Below, one piece after another: positions 47,818 to 56,416 of a stretch of 64,000 nt of DNA (position 1 is the first letter of the stretch; every line of letters starts with the position of its first letter). This stretch comes from Blastococcus sp. HT6-4 (GTDB lineage Bacteria; Actinomycetota; Actinomycetes; Mycobacteriales; Geodermatophilaceae). Made by a program: the position numbers and the translations under genes. The stretch lies in NCBI RefSeq assembly GCF_039679125.1, contig NZ_CP155551.1, positions 186,001 to 250,000 of the forward strand, read 5' to 3'. The notes under the pieces were generated by a model. That model did no database searches. It was not told the DNA's origin and saw nothing but the letters and a program-made list of their open reading frames with translations.

Positions 47818-48975
47818 ATGCACCGAGATTGATCCGCACTGCGCCCGCTGCCCTCGGCGGCCCGCCCCCTCGCCCGGCTGGCCGTGGGCTGGGCCGCGCT
47901 CTCCGAGCTGGTGCCGCTCTACCCGCTCTACGCCCTCCTCGTCCTCGGCACGGGGCTGTCCGACGCCCAGCTCTCGCTGTTGTTCGCGCTCTGGTCGGTC
48001 GCCGGGCTGCTGGCCGAGGTGCCCGCGGGGCTGCTCGCGGACCGGTGGTCCCGTCGCCGGGGTGCTCGCGCTGGCCGGCGTGCTCCAGGCGGGGGCCTTC
48101 GCCGTCTGGACCGCCGTCCCCTCCTTCGCGGGCTTCCCCGTCGGGTTCGTCGTCTGGGGCGTGGGTGGCGCCTGCTCGTCGGGCACCACCGAGGCGCTGG
48201 TCCACGACGGGCTCGCCGACGTCGGCGCGGCGGACCGCTTCGCCCGCGTGCACGGGGCCATGACCGCGGCCGAGCTCGCGGTGCAAATGCCCACGGCGCT
48301 GGCCGCCACCGGCCTGTTCGCCCTGGGTGGGTACTCCCTGGTCGGCTGGGCCAGCGTCGTCACCTGCCTGGGCGCCGCCGCACTGGCGCTGCGCTTCCCC
48401 GAACCCCCGCGAGGGCGGACGACGACGAGGAGGGCTCGCCGCGGGGGTTCGGGGTGCTGCTCCGGTGCCCCGCGCTGCTCACCGCCGTCGGCGCCGTCGC
48501 CCTCGTCGGGGGGCTGGACGGGATGGAGGAGTACTTCCCGGTCCTCGCCGCCGACCGGGGCGTGCCCGCCGTCGCCGTCCCGTCGACGGTGCTGGGGGTG
48601 ATGCTCACCGGGGCCGCCGGCGCCGCACTCGGTGGCCGCCTCGCGCGGCCGGGGGGCCGCACCCTCGCCGCGCTCCTGGCGGCGGCCGGGCTGTCCCTGC
48701 TCGGCGCCGGGGTGGCGCCGGCCGTCGTGGGCCTGATCGCGCTGGCCGTCGGCTACGGCACCTACCTGGCCGTGCTGGTCGCCGCGGAGGCCGAGCTGCA
48801 GCGGCGGATCACCGGCCCCTACCGGGCGACGGTCACCTCGGTCGCCGGCGCCGGGATCGAGCTGTCGTCACTGCTGGTCTTCGCGGCAAGGGCCGGCGGC
48901 GGCGGGACGTCGGTCGCGCTGCTCGTGCTCGCCGTCGTCCCCGTCGTGGCCGCCGGGCTGCGTCGCCGGGGCTGA
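47818..48975 (+). pseudogene. MFS transporter with three disabling lesions
   Basis: The translation is clearly MFS (WAALSELVPLYPLYALLVLG, AGLLAEVPAGLLADRWSRR, FPVGFVVWGVGGACSSGTTE, ATVTSVAGAGIELSSLLVF). However, ATG 47818 is followed by an in-frame TGA after four codons. The frame changes by +1 at a GGGG run near 48058 and changes back near 48403-48417 after a CCCCC run. A GTG at 47884 would avoid the stop but not the shifts. Two shifts at homopolymers could be sequence errors; together with the early stop I call it broken. It converges on and overlaps the next gene. Confidence 0.75.
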
Positions 48976-49602
48976 TCCGGCCAGCGGCAGCGACAGCCGC
49001 GGCAGCAGCACCTGCACCAGCGGGCCGATGGCCAGCGCGTAGACGACGGTGCCGAGGCCCAGGGTGCCGCCGAGCAGCCAGCCGGTGGCGACCACCGCGA
49101 CCTCCACCGACGTCCGCACCAGCCGCACGGAGCGCCCGGTGCGCAGCACCAGGCCGGTCATCAGGCCGTCGCGCGGCCCGGGCCCCAGGTGGACGCCGAT
49201 GTACGCGGCGGTGGCGACGGCGTTGAGCAGGACGCCGGCGACCAGGAACCCGGCCCGTGCCGCCGGTGCTCCCGGCGCGGGCAGGACGGCGAGGGTCGCG
49301 TCGACGGCCAGGCCGATGACGAGGACGTTGCTGACCGTGCCGAGCCCGGGCCGCTGGCGCAGCGGGATCCACGCCAGCAGCACCAGCGCTCCCACCGCGA
49401 TGGTGACCGTGCCCAGCGACCACCCGAGCCGGCCGGCCAGCCCCTGGTGCAGCACGTCCCAGGGCATCACGCCCAGCGCCGAGCGGACGAGGAGCGCCAT
49501 CGAGGCCCCGTAGAGGGCGAGACCGGCGTAGAGCTGCAGCAGCCGCCGGGGCGTGCCCCCGACGGTGGCGGGAGCGCCGGCGAGCAGGAAGCGGTCGATC
49601 AC
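48868..49602 (-). CDS. YczE/YitT-like membrane protein
   Basis: The 244-residue protein starts at GTG 49600-49602 and has about five helices. YAGLALYGASMALLVRSALG, then PWDVLHQGLA and LGPGPRDGLMTGLVLRTG, are the typical YczE-family sequence. The family is probably a membrane transporter of unknown substrate. The last 33 residues (TQPGGHDGDDGEHEQRDRR and on) are hydrophilic and lie over the 3' end of the MFS pseudogene, a 108-bp convergent overlap. The original stop may have been lost, adding a tail. Confidence 0.8.
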   Translation of the reverse strand: MIDRFLLAGAPATVGGTPRRLLQLYAGLALYGASMALLVRSALGVMPWDVLHQGLAGRLGWSLGTVTIAVGALVLLAWIPLRQRPGLGTVSNVLVIGLAVDATLAVLPAPGAPAARAGFLVAGVLLNAVATAAYIGVHLGPGPRDGLMTGLVLRTGRSVRLVRTSVEVAVVATGWLLGGTLGLGTVVYALAIGPLVQVLLPRLSLPLAGSAPATQPGGHDGDDGEHEQRDRRPAAAGPCREDQQ

Positions 49603-49684
49603 CAGGTGATCCTCACCCGGTCGCGGCCGGCCGTCTGCAGGCCAATCGCGACGGTGGCCTGGTGCCCCGGCCCGGTCGAAGGGG

Positions 49685-50908
49685 TCAGCCCCACAGCGGC
49701 GGCGGCTCATCCGACGGCGGCTCCTCCGGCGGCGGGCCGACGGGGTGGGCGGCCGCGGCGGCGGCCGTGGCCGCACGCAGCACCTCCTTGACCGGCAGGT
49801 CGCGGTCGCCGGCCAGGGCGGCGACGTCGTCGTGCTCGACGCTCACGTTCACCACCCGGCCGGCCGAGGTGGCGACCTTCACGCCCACCCGCCCGCCGAG
49901 CACGTCGACGGCGGCGTGCGTGCGGTCGAGCTCCACCTTGCCGACCGCGACCGTCCGCAGGCCGATCGTCGACGTCGTCGCGAAGACCGCGGCCTGCACG
50001 GCCGGCACCGCGTCGGGCCGGCACAGCGCCGAGAGGGTGTGCGCGGGTCGGCCCTTCTTCATCAGGATGGGCGTCAGCCAGGCGTCGGAGGCCCCGGCGG
50101 CGAACAGCGCGTCGAGCACCGCGGGCCACAGCCGGGGGTCGAGGTCGTCGACGTTCGTCTCGAGCACCACGGGGCCGGGCGGCGCCGCCCCGGCCGGATC
50201 GCCGAGCACCAGCCGGACGACGTTGGGCAGCTCCGCCGGATCCCGCCCCCCGGCGCCGGTGCCCACCCGCTCCACGCGCAGCGCGGGGAGCGTCGTCCAC
50301 TCGTCCACCCGGGCGGCGAGCAGCGCCGCGCCGGTGGGTGTGCACATCTCCGCGGGAACGGCCCCGGCGTGCACCGGCACCCCGGCCAGCAGCTCCAGGA
50401 CCGCCGGGCCGGGGATCGGGACGACGCCGTGCGCGCCGCGGGCCGACCCGCTGCCCAGCGCGACCGGCGAGGCGGTCAACCGGTCCAGCTCCAGGTACTC
50501 CAGGCAGGCCACCACGCCGACGACGTCGGCCAGCGCGTCGAGCGCCCCGACCTCGTGGAAGTGCACCTCGTCGGGGCGCACCCGGTGCACCCGCCCCTCG
50601 GCGACCGCCAGCCGTTCGAACACCGCCAGGGCGCCGTCGCGCACCGGCGACGGCAGCGCCGATCCGGTGAGCAGCGCCCGGACGTCGGACCAGGTGCGGT
50701 GCGTATCGGCCGGCGGGGCGTGCACGTGGACGCGGGTGGCGCCCAGGCCGTGCCGGGTCACCTGCTCGGCCACCAGCCGGACCGGCTCCACCGGGAGCGC
50801 GGCGACCGCCTCGGCCGGCACGTCGAGCGGCACCCCGGCGTCGACGAGGGCGCCGAGGAGCATGTCCCCCGACGCCCCGGCGGCGAGGTCCAGCCACCCG
50901 ATCGTCAC
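49685..50908 (-). CDS. larC: Nickel-pincer cofactor nickel insertase LarC
   Basis: The 407-residue protein inserts nickel into pyridinium-3,5-bisthiocarboxylic mononucleotide, the cofactor of lactate racemase and relatives. It begins GWLDLAAGASGDMLLGAL and has DEVHFHEVGALDALADVVG, MCTPTGAALLA, ETNVDDLDP and LTPILMKKGRPAHTLSAL, all classic LarC. Here LarC1 and LarC2 parts are one frame, unlike L. plantarum with its programmed shift. It begins 10 bp after the GGDEF-LarB stop, on the same strand. LarE (sulfur donor) and LarA are not in the window. Confidence 0.93.
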   Translation of the reverse strand: MTIGWLDLAAGASGDMLLGALVDAGVPLDVPAEAVAALPVEPVRLVAEQVTRHGLGATRVHVHAPPADTHRTWSDVRALLTGSALPSPVRDGALAVFERLAVAEGRVHRVRPDEVHFHEVGALDALADVVGVVACLEYLELDRLTASPVALGSGSARGAHGVVPIPGPAVLELLAGVPVHAGAVPAEMCTPTGAALLAARVDEWTTLPALRVERVGTGAGGRDPAELPNVVRLVLGDPAGAAPPGPVVLETNVDDLDPRLWPAVLDALFAAGASDAWLTPILMKKGRPAHTLSALCRPDAVPAVQAAVFATTSTIGLRTVAVGKVELDRTHAAVDVLGGRVGVKVATSAGRVVNVSVEHDDVAALAGDRDLPVKEVLRAATAAAAAAHPVGPPPEEPPSDEPPPLWG

Positions 50909-50918
50909 GGGCCGATCA

Positions 50919-53687
50919 TCACCGTGCGGCAGCCCGGCGGGCCACCCGCGCCGCGAAGACGCCGGCCGAGTAGCCGTTGTCGACCGTGCTCACGACGACG
51001 CCGGAGCCCGCCGAGTTCAGCATCGTCAGCAGCGCCCCCAGCCCGCCGAACGCGCTCGGCTGACCGGCCGAGGTGGGCACCGCCACCACCGGCACGTCGG
51101 TGAGCGAGCCGATCGTCGTGGCCAGCGACGCCTCCATGCCGGCGACGACCACCAGGCAGTCGACCCCGTCGACCAGCGACCGGTCCTCGACGAGTGCCCG
51201 CACCCGGCTGCCGGCGGCGTCGTCGAGACGCAGCACCTCCGTGCCCGCGACGCGTGCGACGAACGCCGCCTCGGCGGCCACCGGCGCGTCCGCCCCGCTC
51301 GCGCACAGCACCGTCGTCCGGCCCACCGGCTCGGGCACCGGACCCACCGCGGCGGACATGGCGGCGGCGTCCATCGTGGTGGCCGGACCGTGCTCGGCGG
51401 CCAGCGCCACCAAGGTCTCCGGGGCGGCGCGGAGCACGAGCACGGGGCGGCCGGGCTGCTCCTGCCGCGCCTCGCGCACCAGGGCCAGCACCTGCTCGGT
51501 CGTCCGGCCGGTGGCCCAGACGGCCGCCGGCTCGGCCGCGGTGGGCGGCGGTGCGGTGATCACCGCGGTGTCGGCCGGCACGGGACCGAGCAGCGGCTCC
51601 CCGGGGCGGTCGGTGCCCAGCGGGGGGTGGGGGCCGATCAGCAGGGAGGCGAAACCGGCCGCCTCGTCGCGCAGCGGGGTGGCGGCCCGGGCGGCGTCGG
51701 CCTCGGGCGGCACGGGGGCGACGGCGGCGGGGGCCGTGGCCTCCTCCTGGGCGGGCGTGCCGCCGCCGGACGCGTCCGCAGCGCTGTCGACGGCGCGCGT
51801 CTGGGTCACGGCGGACAGCCGCACCACGCGGTCGCGGCCGCTGCGCTTGGCGTCGTAGAGCACGCCGTCGGCGGCGGCGAACAGGGTCTTGCGGTCGTCG
51901 CCGCGGGTGGCCGAGGCGATGCCGGCGCTGATCGTCACCGGCACGTCGAGGCCGAGGTCGCTCCACGGGTACCGGGCGACGGACGCGCGGATGCGCTCCA
52001 GCGCCCGCTCGGCCTGCTCGGCGGTGGTCTCGGGCAGCAGGATGACGAACTCGTCGCCGGCCCAGCGGCACACCTCGTCGGTGTCGCGCACGCCGGCCAC
52101 CAGCAGGTCGCCGATCGCGCGGAGCACGGCGTCGCCGCCGGGATGCCCGACGGTGTCGTTGATCGACTTGAACCGGTCGACGTCCACCACGGCCAGGGCG
52201 GGGACGTCGCCGGCGGCCAGCAGCCCGTCGAGGCGTGCCTCGGCGTAGCGCCGGTTGGGCAGCTGGGTGAGCGGGTCCTCGTAGGCCTGGCGGCGGAGCT
52301 GTCCGGCGGCCCGCTCGGTCTCGAGCAGGCTCTTGCGCCGGCCGAACAGCTCGACCCAGCGGGTGCGCCGCTCGTCGACCCGGTCGAGCTCGTCGGTGAG
52401 GTAGGCCTGCAGGTAGGGCAGTGCGCGGCCGGCGTCGTCGAGATCGGCGTGCAGCGTGCACAGCTCGCGCAGCGCTGCCCGGCGCAGCCGCGGCAACCCG
52501 TGCCCGGTGGCCAGGGTGAGCGCGGCGACCAGGTGCTCGTCGGCGGCCCGGCCGTCGCCCTGCCGGCGCAGCGCCCGGCCCAGCGCCAGCTGCGCCGAGG
52601 CCAGCCGGTCGCGGTCGGCGACGGCGGAGGAGAGCCGGACGGCGGCGCGCAGCGGCCCCACCGCGGCGGCCTGCGCGCCGAGCCCGACCAACGCCCAGCC
52701 GTGGACGATCTGCGCGGGCACCACCCCGGGCGAGTCCGGTGGGAGCAGCGCCAGCGCCTGCTCGGCCAGCCGCCGGGCCTCGGCGAAGTACGGCGCGGCC
52801 GACTCCGGGGCGCCGTCGTCGAGCAGCCCCTCGCCGAGCTCCGCGCACAGCTCGCCGAGCCGGGTGCCGGCGATGGCGACGAGCACGTCGGGGTGGACGT
52901 CCTCCGGCCCGAGGACGGCGGGATCCGCGGCGGCCGCCTGCGCCGTCTCGTGCGCCCGGCGCTGGTAGTCGAGGGCCAGCGGCATGAGTTCCAGGTCGGC
53001 CAGGACACCGGCCAGCGTGCCGAGCGTGTCTACCAGCAGCACGCTGGGCGCCAGGGTCGGGTCGAGCAGGCTCGCCGCCTCGACGGCCTCGTCCATCGCC
53101 GCGTCGATCCGGCGGGAGAGCAGTTCGATGCGGGCGTGCCGGGCCAGGCCCGCGGCCCGCTGGAGGTCGTCGTCGGCGGCGTCGAACGCGGCCTTGGCCG
53201 AGCGGACCAGCGCGATCGCCAGCGCGGCGCGGGAGGCCGACTCCGCGCGCGGGTCGGCGCCCTCGCCGGTGCCCTCGATCAGCTCCGCGACACCGGCGTG
53301 CAGGTCGAGCGACGGCTCGGCCGGGGAGTCGGGGGAGACCGGGTCGCCGACCACGGTGAACCCGGCGACCCGCAGCCGGCGCACCAGCAGCTCGGCGCGC
53401 AGCGTGTCGGCCCAGGCGCGGCCCAGCGATGCGGGGGCGCCGTCGGGCGCGTCGGCGGCCGGTGCGGCTGCGACGTAGGGCGACGGATCCCGCTCCACAC
53501 CCGCGAGCAACTGCTCGGCGTCGTCGAGCTGCCAGTTGCTCAGGGCGGCGGTCACCCGGTGATGCAGGGCTCCCGGTGGCACGAGCGCACTGTGCATGTC
53601 GTCACGCACCGTGTCGAGCACGTGACTGCGAACGCGCCGTCCCTCGTCCGTCCCGTCCCTCCCGTCCCAGGCGTCCGGGACGCTCAT
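50919..53687 (-). CDS. GGDEF diguanylate cyclase fused to a LarB-like domain
   Basis: One continuous frame of 922 residues. Residues 1-460 are helical, TPR-like, as in the upstream gene. Residues 465-625 are a GGDEF domain: DPLTQLPNRRYAEARL, an I-site RDTD and the catalytic site as AGDEF (543-547). After a Pro/Ala-rich linker, residues about 715-915 are a LarB/PurE-like domain: VVVAGMEASLATTIGSL, VVAVPTSAG, FGGLGALLTMLNSAGSG, VDNGYSAG. LarB carboxylates and hydrolyses nicotinic acid adenine dinucleotide to begin nickel-pincer synthesis. Its catalytic Cys, in LNSC, is Ala here, at the exact spacing (41 residues) from the MEG Glu. The start overlaps the upstream stop (ATGA); larC follows. Confidence 0.9.
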   Translation of the reverse strand: MSVPDAWDGRDGTDEGRRVRSHVLDTVRDDMHSALVPPGALHHRVTAALSNWQLDDAEQLLAGVERDPSPYVAAAPAADAPDGAPASLGRAWADTLRAELLVRRLRVAGFTVVGDPVSPDSPAEPSLDLHAGVAELIEGTGEGADPRAESASRAALAIALVRSAKAAFDAADDDLQRAAGLARHARIELLSRRIDAAMDEAVEAASLLDPTLAPSVLLVDTLGTLAGVLADLELMPLALDYQRRAHETAQAAAADPAVLGPEDVHPDVLVAIAGTRLGELCAELGEGLLDDGAPESAAPYFAEARRLAEQALALLPPDSPGVVPAQIVHGWALVGLGAQAAAVGPLRAAVRLSSAVADRDRLASAQLALGRALRRQGDGRAADEHLVAALTLATGHGLPRLRRAALRELCTLHADLDDAGRALPYLQAYLTDELDRVDERRTRWVELFGRRKSLLETERAAGQLRRQAYEDPLTQLPNRRYAEARLDGLLAAGDVPALAVVDVDRFKSINDTVGHPGGDAVLRAIGDLLVAGVRDTDEVCRWAGDEFVILLPETTAEQAERALERIRASVARYPWSDLGLDVPVTISAGIASATRGDDRKTLFAAADGVLYDAKRSGRDRVVRLSAVTQTRAVDSAADASGGGTPAQEEATAPAAVAPVPPEADAARAATPLRDEAAGFASLLIGPHPPLGTDRPGEPLLGPVPADTAVITAPPPTAAEPAAVWATGRTTEQVLALVREARQEQPGRPVLVLRAAPETLVALAAEHGPATTMDAAAMSAAVGPVPEPVGRTTVLCASGADAPVAAEAAFVARVAGTEVLRLDDAAGSRVRALVEDRSLVDGVDCLVVVAGMEASLATTIGSLTDVPVVAVPTSAGQPSAFGGLGALLTMLNSAGSGVVVSTVDNGYSAGVFAARVARRAAAR

Positions 53688-55360: not shown

Positions 55361-55465
55361 GGATTCCTCCACTGGGTAGGCGGCCACGCGGGCCGGTGCT
55401 GCGGTAGGGAGGCCGTTCCTCCGGGTGGGGCCGCTGGCCGGCCCCCTCCGCACTACCCTCGTCGG

Positions 55466-56416
55466 ATGCCCGGGATGCCACCCAGTACGCCTCCGACGCG
55501 GTTCGCCTATCTCGGGCCCGAGGGTACCTTCGCCGACGCGGCCCTGAGCAGGGCAATTGGCCCTGCCGGGGGACTCCGTGACCCCCAGCCGAGTGTCGCC
55601 GCCGCGCTGGCCGCCGTCCGGTCGGGGGACGCCGACGCCGCCCTCGTCCCGCTGGAGAACTCCATCGAGGGCTCGGTGCCGGCCACGATGGACGGACTGG
55701 CCGACGGCGAGCCGCTGGTGATCACCCGCGAGGTCGTCCTGGAGGTCGCCTTCGTGCTGGCCGTCCGGCCGGGGACGGCCCTCGCCGACGTCCGGTCGGT
55801 CGCCAGCCATCCGCACGCGCTCGCGCAGACCGGCCGGCGGCTGGGCGAGCTGCTGCCCGGCGTCGTCCCGCTGCCCACGTCCTCGACCGCGGGGGCGGCG
55901 GCCGCGGTGGCCGCGGGGGAGGTCGACGCCGCCGTCTGCGCGGCGATCGCGGCGACCCGCTACGGGCTCGACACCCTGGCCGACGACGTCGCCGACCACC
56001 CGGGCGCCGTCACGCGGTTCGTGCTCGTCGGCCGCCCCGGCGGTCCGCTGCCCGAGCCGACGGGCAACGACAAGACGTCGCTGGTGGCGGTGGTCGGCGA
56101 CCGGACCGGCGCTCTCCTGGAGGTGCTGCGCGAGTTCTCCGTCCGCGGCATCTCGCTGACCCGGATCGAGTCCCGGCCGACCCGGGAGCGGCACTGGTTC
56201 TACTCCTTCGCCCTGGACTGCGAGGGGCACGTCGCCGAGCCCCGGGTGGGCGAGGCGCTCGCCGCGCTGCACCGGGTGTGCGACGACGTCCGCTTCCTCG
56301 GGTCCTACCCGCGGGGGGACGGGCGGGAGAACCGGCCGGTGCCGGGCGAGGCGTCGGACACCGCGTTCGCCGAGGCGCAGGACTGGCTGGCCCGGCTGCG
56401 GTCCGGCGAGGCCTGA
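55466..56416 (+). CDS. pheA: Prephenate dehydratase
   Basis: The 316-residue enzyme converts prephenate to phenylpyruvate in phenylalanine synthesis. It starts at ATG 55466. The PDT domain shows YLGPEGTFADAAL, VPLENSIEGSVPATMD, STAGAAAAVAAGE and the catalytic TRF (in AVTRFVLVG). The C-terminal ACT domain has GALLEVLREFSVRGISLTRIESRPTRE, where Phe binds for feedback control. No chorismate mutase is fused. It is divergent from the cyclase operon. Confidence 0.95.
   Translation: MPGMPPSTPPTRFAYLGPEGTFADAALSRAIGPAGGLRDPQPSVAAALAAVRSGDADAALVPLENSIEGSVPATMDGLADGEPLVITREVVLEVAFVLAVRPGTALADVRSVASHPHALAQTGRRLGELLPGVVPLPTSSTAGAAAAVAAGEVDAAVCAAIAATRYGLDTLADDVADHPGAVTRFVLVGRPGGPLPEPTGNDKTSLVAVVGDRTGALLEVLREFSVRGISLTRIESRPTRERHWFYSFALDCEGHVAEPRVGEALAALHRVCDDVRFLGSYPRGDGRENRPVPGEASDTAFAEAQDWLARLRSGEA

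Follow-up and report, generated by a model that had tools for sequence, protein, structure and literature searches.

A conserved fusion of a GGDEF domain with a LarB-like domain that lacks the catalytic cysteine in Geodermatophilaceae

The window analysed here, a stretch of 64,000 nucleotides from Blastococcus sp. HT6-4, encodes on its minus strand a protein of 922 aa in which a helical N-terminal region, a GGDEF domain and a LarB-like domain are translated as a single uninterrupted frame (Table 1), as the initial annotation had described. The GGDEF domain (aa 468–620) scores 129.5 bits against a Pfam gathering score of 23.8, and the two motifs previously assigned to it, the AGDEF active site (aa 543–547) and the RDTD inhibitory site (aa 534–537), are both in place. 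The 74 full-length fusion proteins divide into 69 with AGDEF and 5 with AGDEY, and into 70 with RDTD and 4 with RDSD. With a domain above the gathering score and both active-site and RxxD motifs, the protein is, judged from its sequence, a probable diguanylate cyclase making c-di-GMP.

The full-length AF2 model is weak overall (pLDDT 62.5, pTM 0.36), with blocks of aa 211–420 at pLDDT 76–97, and parts of it match LarB, diguanylate cyclases and LGN in Foldseek searches. The N-terminal region had been called TPR-like; Pfam gave no TPR match there, but AF2 builds the region as a helical superhelix, for which Foldseek returns matches to LGN, a TPR protein. Ahead of the GGDEF domain a helix is modelled over aa 419–468, with pLDDT below 50 across aa 440–476. 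The linker behind the GGDEF domain (aa 631–715) varies among the fusions, with a mean identity of 0.40 and an aligned length of 60–166 aa. Modelled alone from 42 fused sequences, the LarB-like domain reaches a pLDDT of 91.3 and a pTM of 0.89, and the 27 best Foldseek matches in the PDB are all L. plantarum LarB (TM 0.80–0.85), followed by PurE, in agreement with the earlier proposal of a reused LarB fold. Pfam places an AIRC match at aa 840–916.

Table 1 Features of the fusion locus; positions are those of the window
Feature	Position	Strand	Basis
Fusion gene, 922 aa, ATG start, stop included	50919..53687	-	Single open frame
TPR-like helical superhelix, aa 216-415	52443..53042	-	AF2 model, Foldseek matches to LGN
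Long helix, possible coiled coil, into GGDEF, aa 419-468	52284..52433	-	AF2 model
GGDEF domain, aa 468-620	51828..52286	-	PF00990, 129.5 bits
Active-site motif AGDEF, aa 543-547	52047..52061	-	Motif in sequence
Inhibitory-site motif RDTD (RxxD), aa 534-537	52077..52088	-	Motif in sequence
Pro/Ala-rich disordered linker, aa 631-717	51537..51797	-	pLDDT ~30
LarB-like domain, aa 721-921	50925..51527	-	NF033503, PDB LarB, AF2, Foldseek
Ala893 codon, at LarB Cys221 position	51009..51011	-	Alignments
larC, 407 aa	49685..50908	-	TIGR00299, 195 bits; NF052512, 130 bits
Tandem upstream paralogue, helical region and AGDEF-bearing GGDEF, no LarB domain, 558 aa	53684..55360	-	PF00990, 98 bits; GTG start chosen from GGAGG upstream

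The fusion gene overlaps the gene upstream of it by ATGA, and larC starts 10 bp past its stop, at 50908, which bears out the reported position directly upstream of larC. The 407-aa larC product exceeds the NCBIfam cut-offs for both LarC1 and LarC2 and is the only LarC1 match in the host genome. The upstream gene encodes a paralogous GGDEF protein without a Pfam AIRC match, and the two proteins may form a heterodimer. After larC, a frame at 48868–49677 on the minus strand is membrane-protein-like, with no Pfam match at E 0.01, and divergent from the cyclase pair a plus-strand gene at 55463–56416 encodes a prephenate dehydratase with an ACT domain. A promoter and terminator scan detected nothing.

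The C-terminal domain is related to LarB, but scores below the family cut-off. The NCBIfam LarB model NF033503 matches aa 720–917 with 135.5 bits (E 2e-39) and, on genome DNA, 139.5 bits, in both cases under the curated cut-off of 175, which two fused relatives (G093 and G090) do pass; a phmmer search with the domain hits LarB entries in the PDB, with E-values of 6e-31 and 1e-30. In the motif LNSAGSG, Ala893 aligns with Cys221 of L. plantarum LarB, the catalytic Cys by the title of a PNAS 2021 study, and the 41 residues that separate Glu852 from Ala893 equal the spacing of Glu180 and Cys221 in that enzyme, so the Cys-to-Ala exchange first read from the motif and its spacing holds. In the alignment the Cys is present in 0 of 104 fused domains vs 45 of 45 standalone LarBs. 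The latter set comprises the host genome, 31 rows from the same family and 13 from the order outside that family, with one genome (G107) entered twice; the 104–105 fused rows include the same species twice by two routes, with 32 rows below 85% identity. The possibility that active LarB enzymes normally do without the Cys, raised at the outset as an alternative, was thereby ruled out.

Other positions invariant in LarB have changed with the Cys. None of the 104 fused domains retains S127, Y204 or K57, the last having become Arg in all 104, and R159 and H158 survive in only 2 and 9; standalone LarBs keep these residues and the Cys in 45 of 45, except for S127 (43 of 45). New Arg residues also stand at LarB G156 (97 of 104) and H158 (84 of 104). 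A second group of positions is nearly untouched: D128 is kept in 103 of 104 fused domains and T200–S201 and D231 in 104, and, taken together, D128, P199–T200–S201, D231 and G233 are kept in 103–104. The 24 changed LarB-invariant positions have a conservation of 0.65 among the fusions, vs 0.80 for the average column, and those most strongly re-fixed are R728, A740 and A853, then R828, P877, G826 and R830. The N-terminal LarB segment, previously judged weak, mostly lacks its motif: R-x-G-x-P, found in 44 of 45 standalone LarBs, is missing from the 30 residues that precede the domain in 97 of the 104 fusions, and the other 7 have at most a candidate match.

The distribution of the domain was compared with that of the nickel-pincer (NPN) pathway in 108 Geodermatophilaceae genomes, some of them less than 90% complete. 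Of these, 70 have a standalone LarB, 69 LarE, 78 LarC and 32 a LarA-type Lar_N domain. LarB and LarE agree in 107 of the 108 (69 with both, 38 with neither), one genome having LarB only, and the LarB-less genomes are spread over five genera; this joint absence in five genera suggests that the pathway was lost or gained as a unit more than once. The fused-type domain, scored in the table by its match and placed in frame with GGDEF for the loci that were read, is present in 96 of 108 genomes, or 97 once a divergent copy in G107 (L205) is included. By the table it occurs in 59 of the 70 genomes that have LarB and in 37 of the 38 that lack both LarB and LarE, so the occurrence with LarE and LarC expected of a LarB does not extend to this domain. 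In 28 of the 108 genomes it is present without LarB, LarE, LarC or LarA. All 28 loci were read: the domain is in one frame with GGDEF in 27, the other being G046, and all 28 lack a Cys at the LarB catalytic site.

Elsewhere in the table, contigs end right after GGDEF in G080 and G097, G018 has the cyclase and LarB portions split between the ends of two contigs, and in G033, where a contig end cuts the fusion locus, the domain was confirmed in frame. Nine genomes (G066–G074, three genera, 74–98% complete) have neither the domain nor a close cyclase homologue. In the loci read, the LarB-like domain follows GGDEF wherever the contig continues, with or without the cofactor pathway. Because the domain occurs in genomes without the NPN pathway, NPN synthesis or sensing is not common to all copies, and an NPN-pathway enzyme or cofactor sensor was rejected as the function of all copies. 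Two of the functions first suggested, a nickel-cofactor sensor and, for NPN, a carboxylase with altered chemistry, are thus not supported as shared functions of the domain, which is about equally conserved where LarB and LarE are absent. The C-terminal domain has the LarB fold but scores under the cut-off, has no catalytic Cys and is not tied to the pathway, and we therefore do not file it as LarB.

The 4.3-Mb host genome itself has a separate, complete LarB that retains the Cys (LTACAPG, 243 bits), which answers the question whether a full larB exists beside the fusion; LarE is also present, and Lar_N (LarA) gave no match. The host LarB, LarE and LarC are scattered (contig C1 3139878 and 2249065, and window 49685–50908), resembling an orphan nickel-pincer pathway. 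LarBCE without LarA is known elsewhere, in ~15% of the genomes analysed according to one study (PMC11796402). Five genomes of the same genus as the window (G010, G012, G017, G002 and G014; e.g. loci L029, L016, L027 and L021) have no LarB or LarE but a LarC less than 5 kb from the fusion; these LarCs score 122–158 bits vs 184–205 for most others in the family, and seem to be decaying or changing role. Another genome (G091) has, besides the fusion, two full LarBs and part of a third, along with three matches to LarE and two to LarC, suggesting more than one lar cluster.

The arrangement is not an artefact of the host assembly. In 75 of 80 named loci, which are the best 80 of 100 relatives by whole-protein similarity, the N-terminal part, GGDEF and the LarB-like domain share one frame, and the remaining 5 are truncated by a contig end ahead of the LarB part, so that all 75 copies uncut by a contig end carry the domain. 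The frameshift or misassembly that the initial annotation had named as a way to be wrong was rejected on these grounds. In 73 of the 75 intact loci an upstream paralogue ends less than 1.5 kb from where the fusion begins, and in 39 larC begins at most 3 kb downstream. One fusion gene (L018, in G031) is interrupted by an in-frame stop close to where GGDEF begins, and at another locus (L200, in G046) the LarB part is in a different frame from GGDEF; each is either a sequencing error or real decay.

Median dN/dS is 0.38 for the LarB-like domain, 0.41 for the N-terminal part, 0.24 for GGDEF and, highest, 0.79 for the linker, values obtained by NG86, which is biased in high-GC genes, from sequence pairs that are not independent. 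The 35 rows counted as pathway-present, of which one (G094) comes from outside the 108-genome table, share 85 conserved columns, and retention in these columns is 98.5% across 15 pathway-less rows; the domain is thus constrained in both groups. The median dN/dS of the domain is 0.38 in pathway-less vs 0.31 in pathway-present genomes, and constraint is possibly slightly weaker without the lar pathway.

In a tree with 37 standalone rows, the 23 fused rows form one clade on one side of a single branch (support 100/100, length 0.55), and the standalone LarBs of Geodermatophilaceae split into more than one lineage. Outgroup families have a conventional larB whose motif is LNSCAPG or close to it, and in 12 of the 13 loci that were read this gene adjoins larC; a likely origin of the fusion would therefore be the joining of such a larB to a cyclase gene in front of it. 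Profile searches covered 397 genomes of the order (138 matched, 74 in the family and 64 outside) and 396 of the phylum, and among the matches listed nothing outside Geodermatophilaceae exceeds 232 bits. Of the outside matches, 22 loci were read (the 13 and a further 9 with long frames), and in each the LarB frame keeps its Cys and is without a match to the GGDEF of the fusion. Neither the listed matches nor the 22 outside loci showed another fusion, so that within this sample it seems confined to Geodermatophilaceae. A search of open-access papers for this pairing yielded no description of a GGDEF–LarB protein. GGDEF–LarB is a confirmed, conserved new domain combination.

The explanation we prefer, to which as a whole we give roughly even odds (about 0.5), is a LarB pseudoenzyme recruited once to a diguanylate cyclase and serving there as an assembly or docking module. 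A LarB gene would have been joined to the 3′ end of a cyclase gene before most present Geodermatophilaceae genera diverged, and its LarB part would then have lost the catalytic Cys and other LarB-invariant residues to become a pseudoenzyme, while the standalone LarBs kept their enzyme residues. That the fused domain is a LarB pseudoenzyme whose role is independent of the NPN pathway is very probable; that this role is assembly or docking is put forward tentatively. GGDEF domains must pair to work, and LarB and PurE are multimers; these two properties, together with the flexible linker, make assembly or docking our first choice, favoured over a nucleotide sensor. A rigid relay of signal from the C-terminus is unlikely, since the linker is disordered and variable in length. 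In the proposed mechanism, the GGDEF domain would make c-di-GMP under feedback inhibition at RxxD and would receive its main input by way of the helical N-terminal region. The LarB-like domain, tethered on a flexible linker and exerting no rigid push on GGDEF, would gather GGDEF domains by LarB-type self-association so that they pair, and any ligand that the altered pocket has kept may modulate this.

Several observations pull in other directions. The re-fixed positions and the kept D128 and P199–T200–S201 count against assembly and would fit a new ligand, and it is possible, though doubtful, that the pseudo-LarB acts as a ligand sensor in which NaAD, NAD, NMN or another anionic nucleotide, bound in a remodelled pocket, tunes the cyclase. 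LarB crystals with adenosine monophosphate-like and NAD ligands exist (titles of PDB 7mj0 and 7mj1), the nearly invariant D128, P199–T200–S201, D231 and G233 could be part of such a site, and the new Arg residues at LarB K57, G156 and H158 could hold an anion if these positions line the pocket, as we infer; the re-fixed positions include Arg at 728, 828 and 830. The disordered linker speaks against this, as does the below-average conservation of the 24 rewritten LarB-invariant positions, because of which a scaffold fits better than a tight shared ligand site. The narrower proposal that the domain is a receptor for pyridine or adenine nucleotides, with c-di-GMP synthesis responding to NAD metabolism, we consider unlikely; if true, an NAD-responsive pseudo-LarB would be a new input class for diguanylate cyclases, derived from a dead cofactor-synthesis enzyme.

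The assembly reading also makes no use of the nearness of larC, which adjoins the fusion here, lies within 3 kb of the fused-type domain in 52 of the 68 genomes that have both, and hints at a link to LarC. A domain that reports on or docks the NPN pathway (LarC, LarB or the cofactor) and so couples it to c-di-GMP would explain this proximity, but is improbable: 28 of 108 genomes have the domain without any of LarB, LarE, LarC and LarA, the 15 copies from genomes lacking LarB and LarE show about the same conservation as the rest, and the adjacency can be a relic of the larB–larC order seen in the outgroup. For an enzyme with altered chemistry, such as a Cys-free carboxylase or a nucleotide hydrolase, one can cite the LarB fold and the several LarB motifs still conserved; with S127, K57, Y204, R159 and H158 lost or nearly lost besides the Cys, and with no use in NPN synthesis in the 37 genomes without LarE, we regard it as very improbable. 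Equally remote is a functionless, decaying remnant trailing GGDEF. The catalytic residues are indeed gone and dN/dS is above that of GGDEF, yet every one of the 75 uncut copies has kept the domain, retention in its conserved columns is 98.5%, and its dN/dS is half that of the linker.

Whatever its role, the fusion offers a natural control, a cofactor-biosynthesis pseudoenzyme in a second-messenger cyclase that is kept both with and without the parent pathway. It also carries a warning for annotation: because 37 of the 108 family genomes have a LarB-like domain without standalone LarB and LarE, a LarB-like match does not by itself imply NPN synthesis, not even next to larC.

Compared with known systems, the fused domain is closest to LarB, the pyridinium-3,5-biscarboxylic acid mononucleotide synthase of L. 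plantarum (PDB 7mj0, 7mj1 and 7mj2), an enzyme that carboxylates and hydrolyses NaAD and with which it shares a fold over ~200 residues at 36–39% identity in structural alignment. The central and C-terminal LarB motifs remain recognisable, while the N-terminal R-x-G-x-P is mostly absent; LarB is a standalone enzyme, whereas the fused domain is attached to a cyclase, falls under the NCBIfam cut-off and has lost active-site residues. PurE (N5-CAIR mutase) matches part of the domain only: its fold is common to the second half, where the AIRC match lies, with a TM of 0.42–0.55 to the query and 20–26% identity. On the cyclase side, SiaD, DgcR, PleD and DgcB are among the Foldseek matches to the GGDEF part of the model. 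Like these enzymes, the fusion protein has a complete GGDEF domain with AGDEF and RxxD motifs and a long helix before it; unlike them, it adds a C-terminal LarB-like domain.
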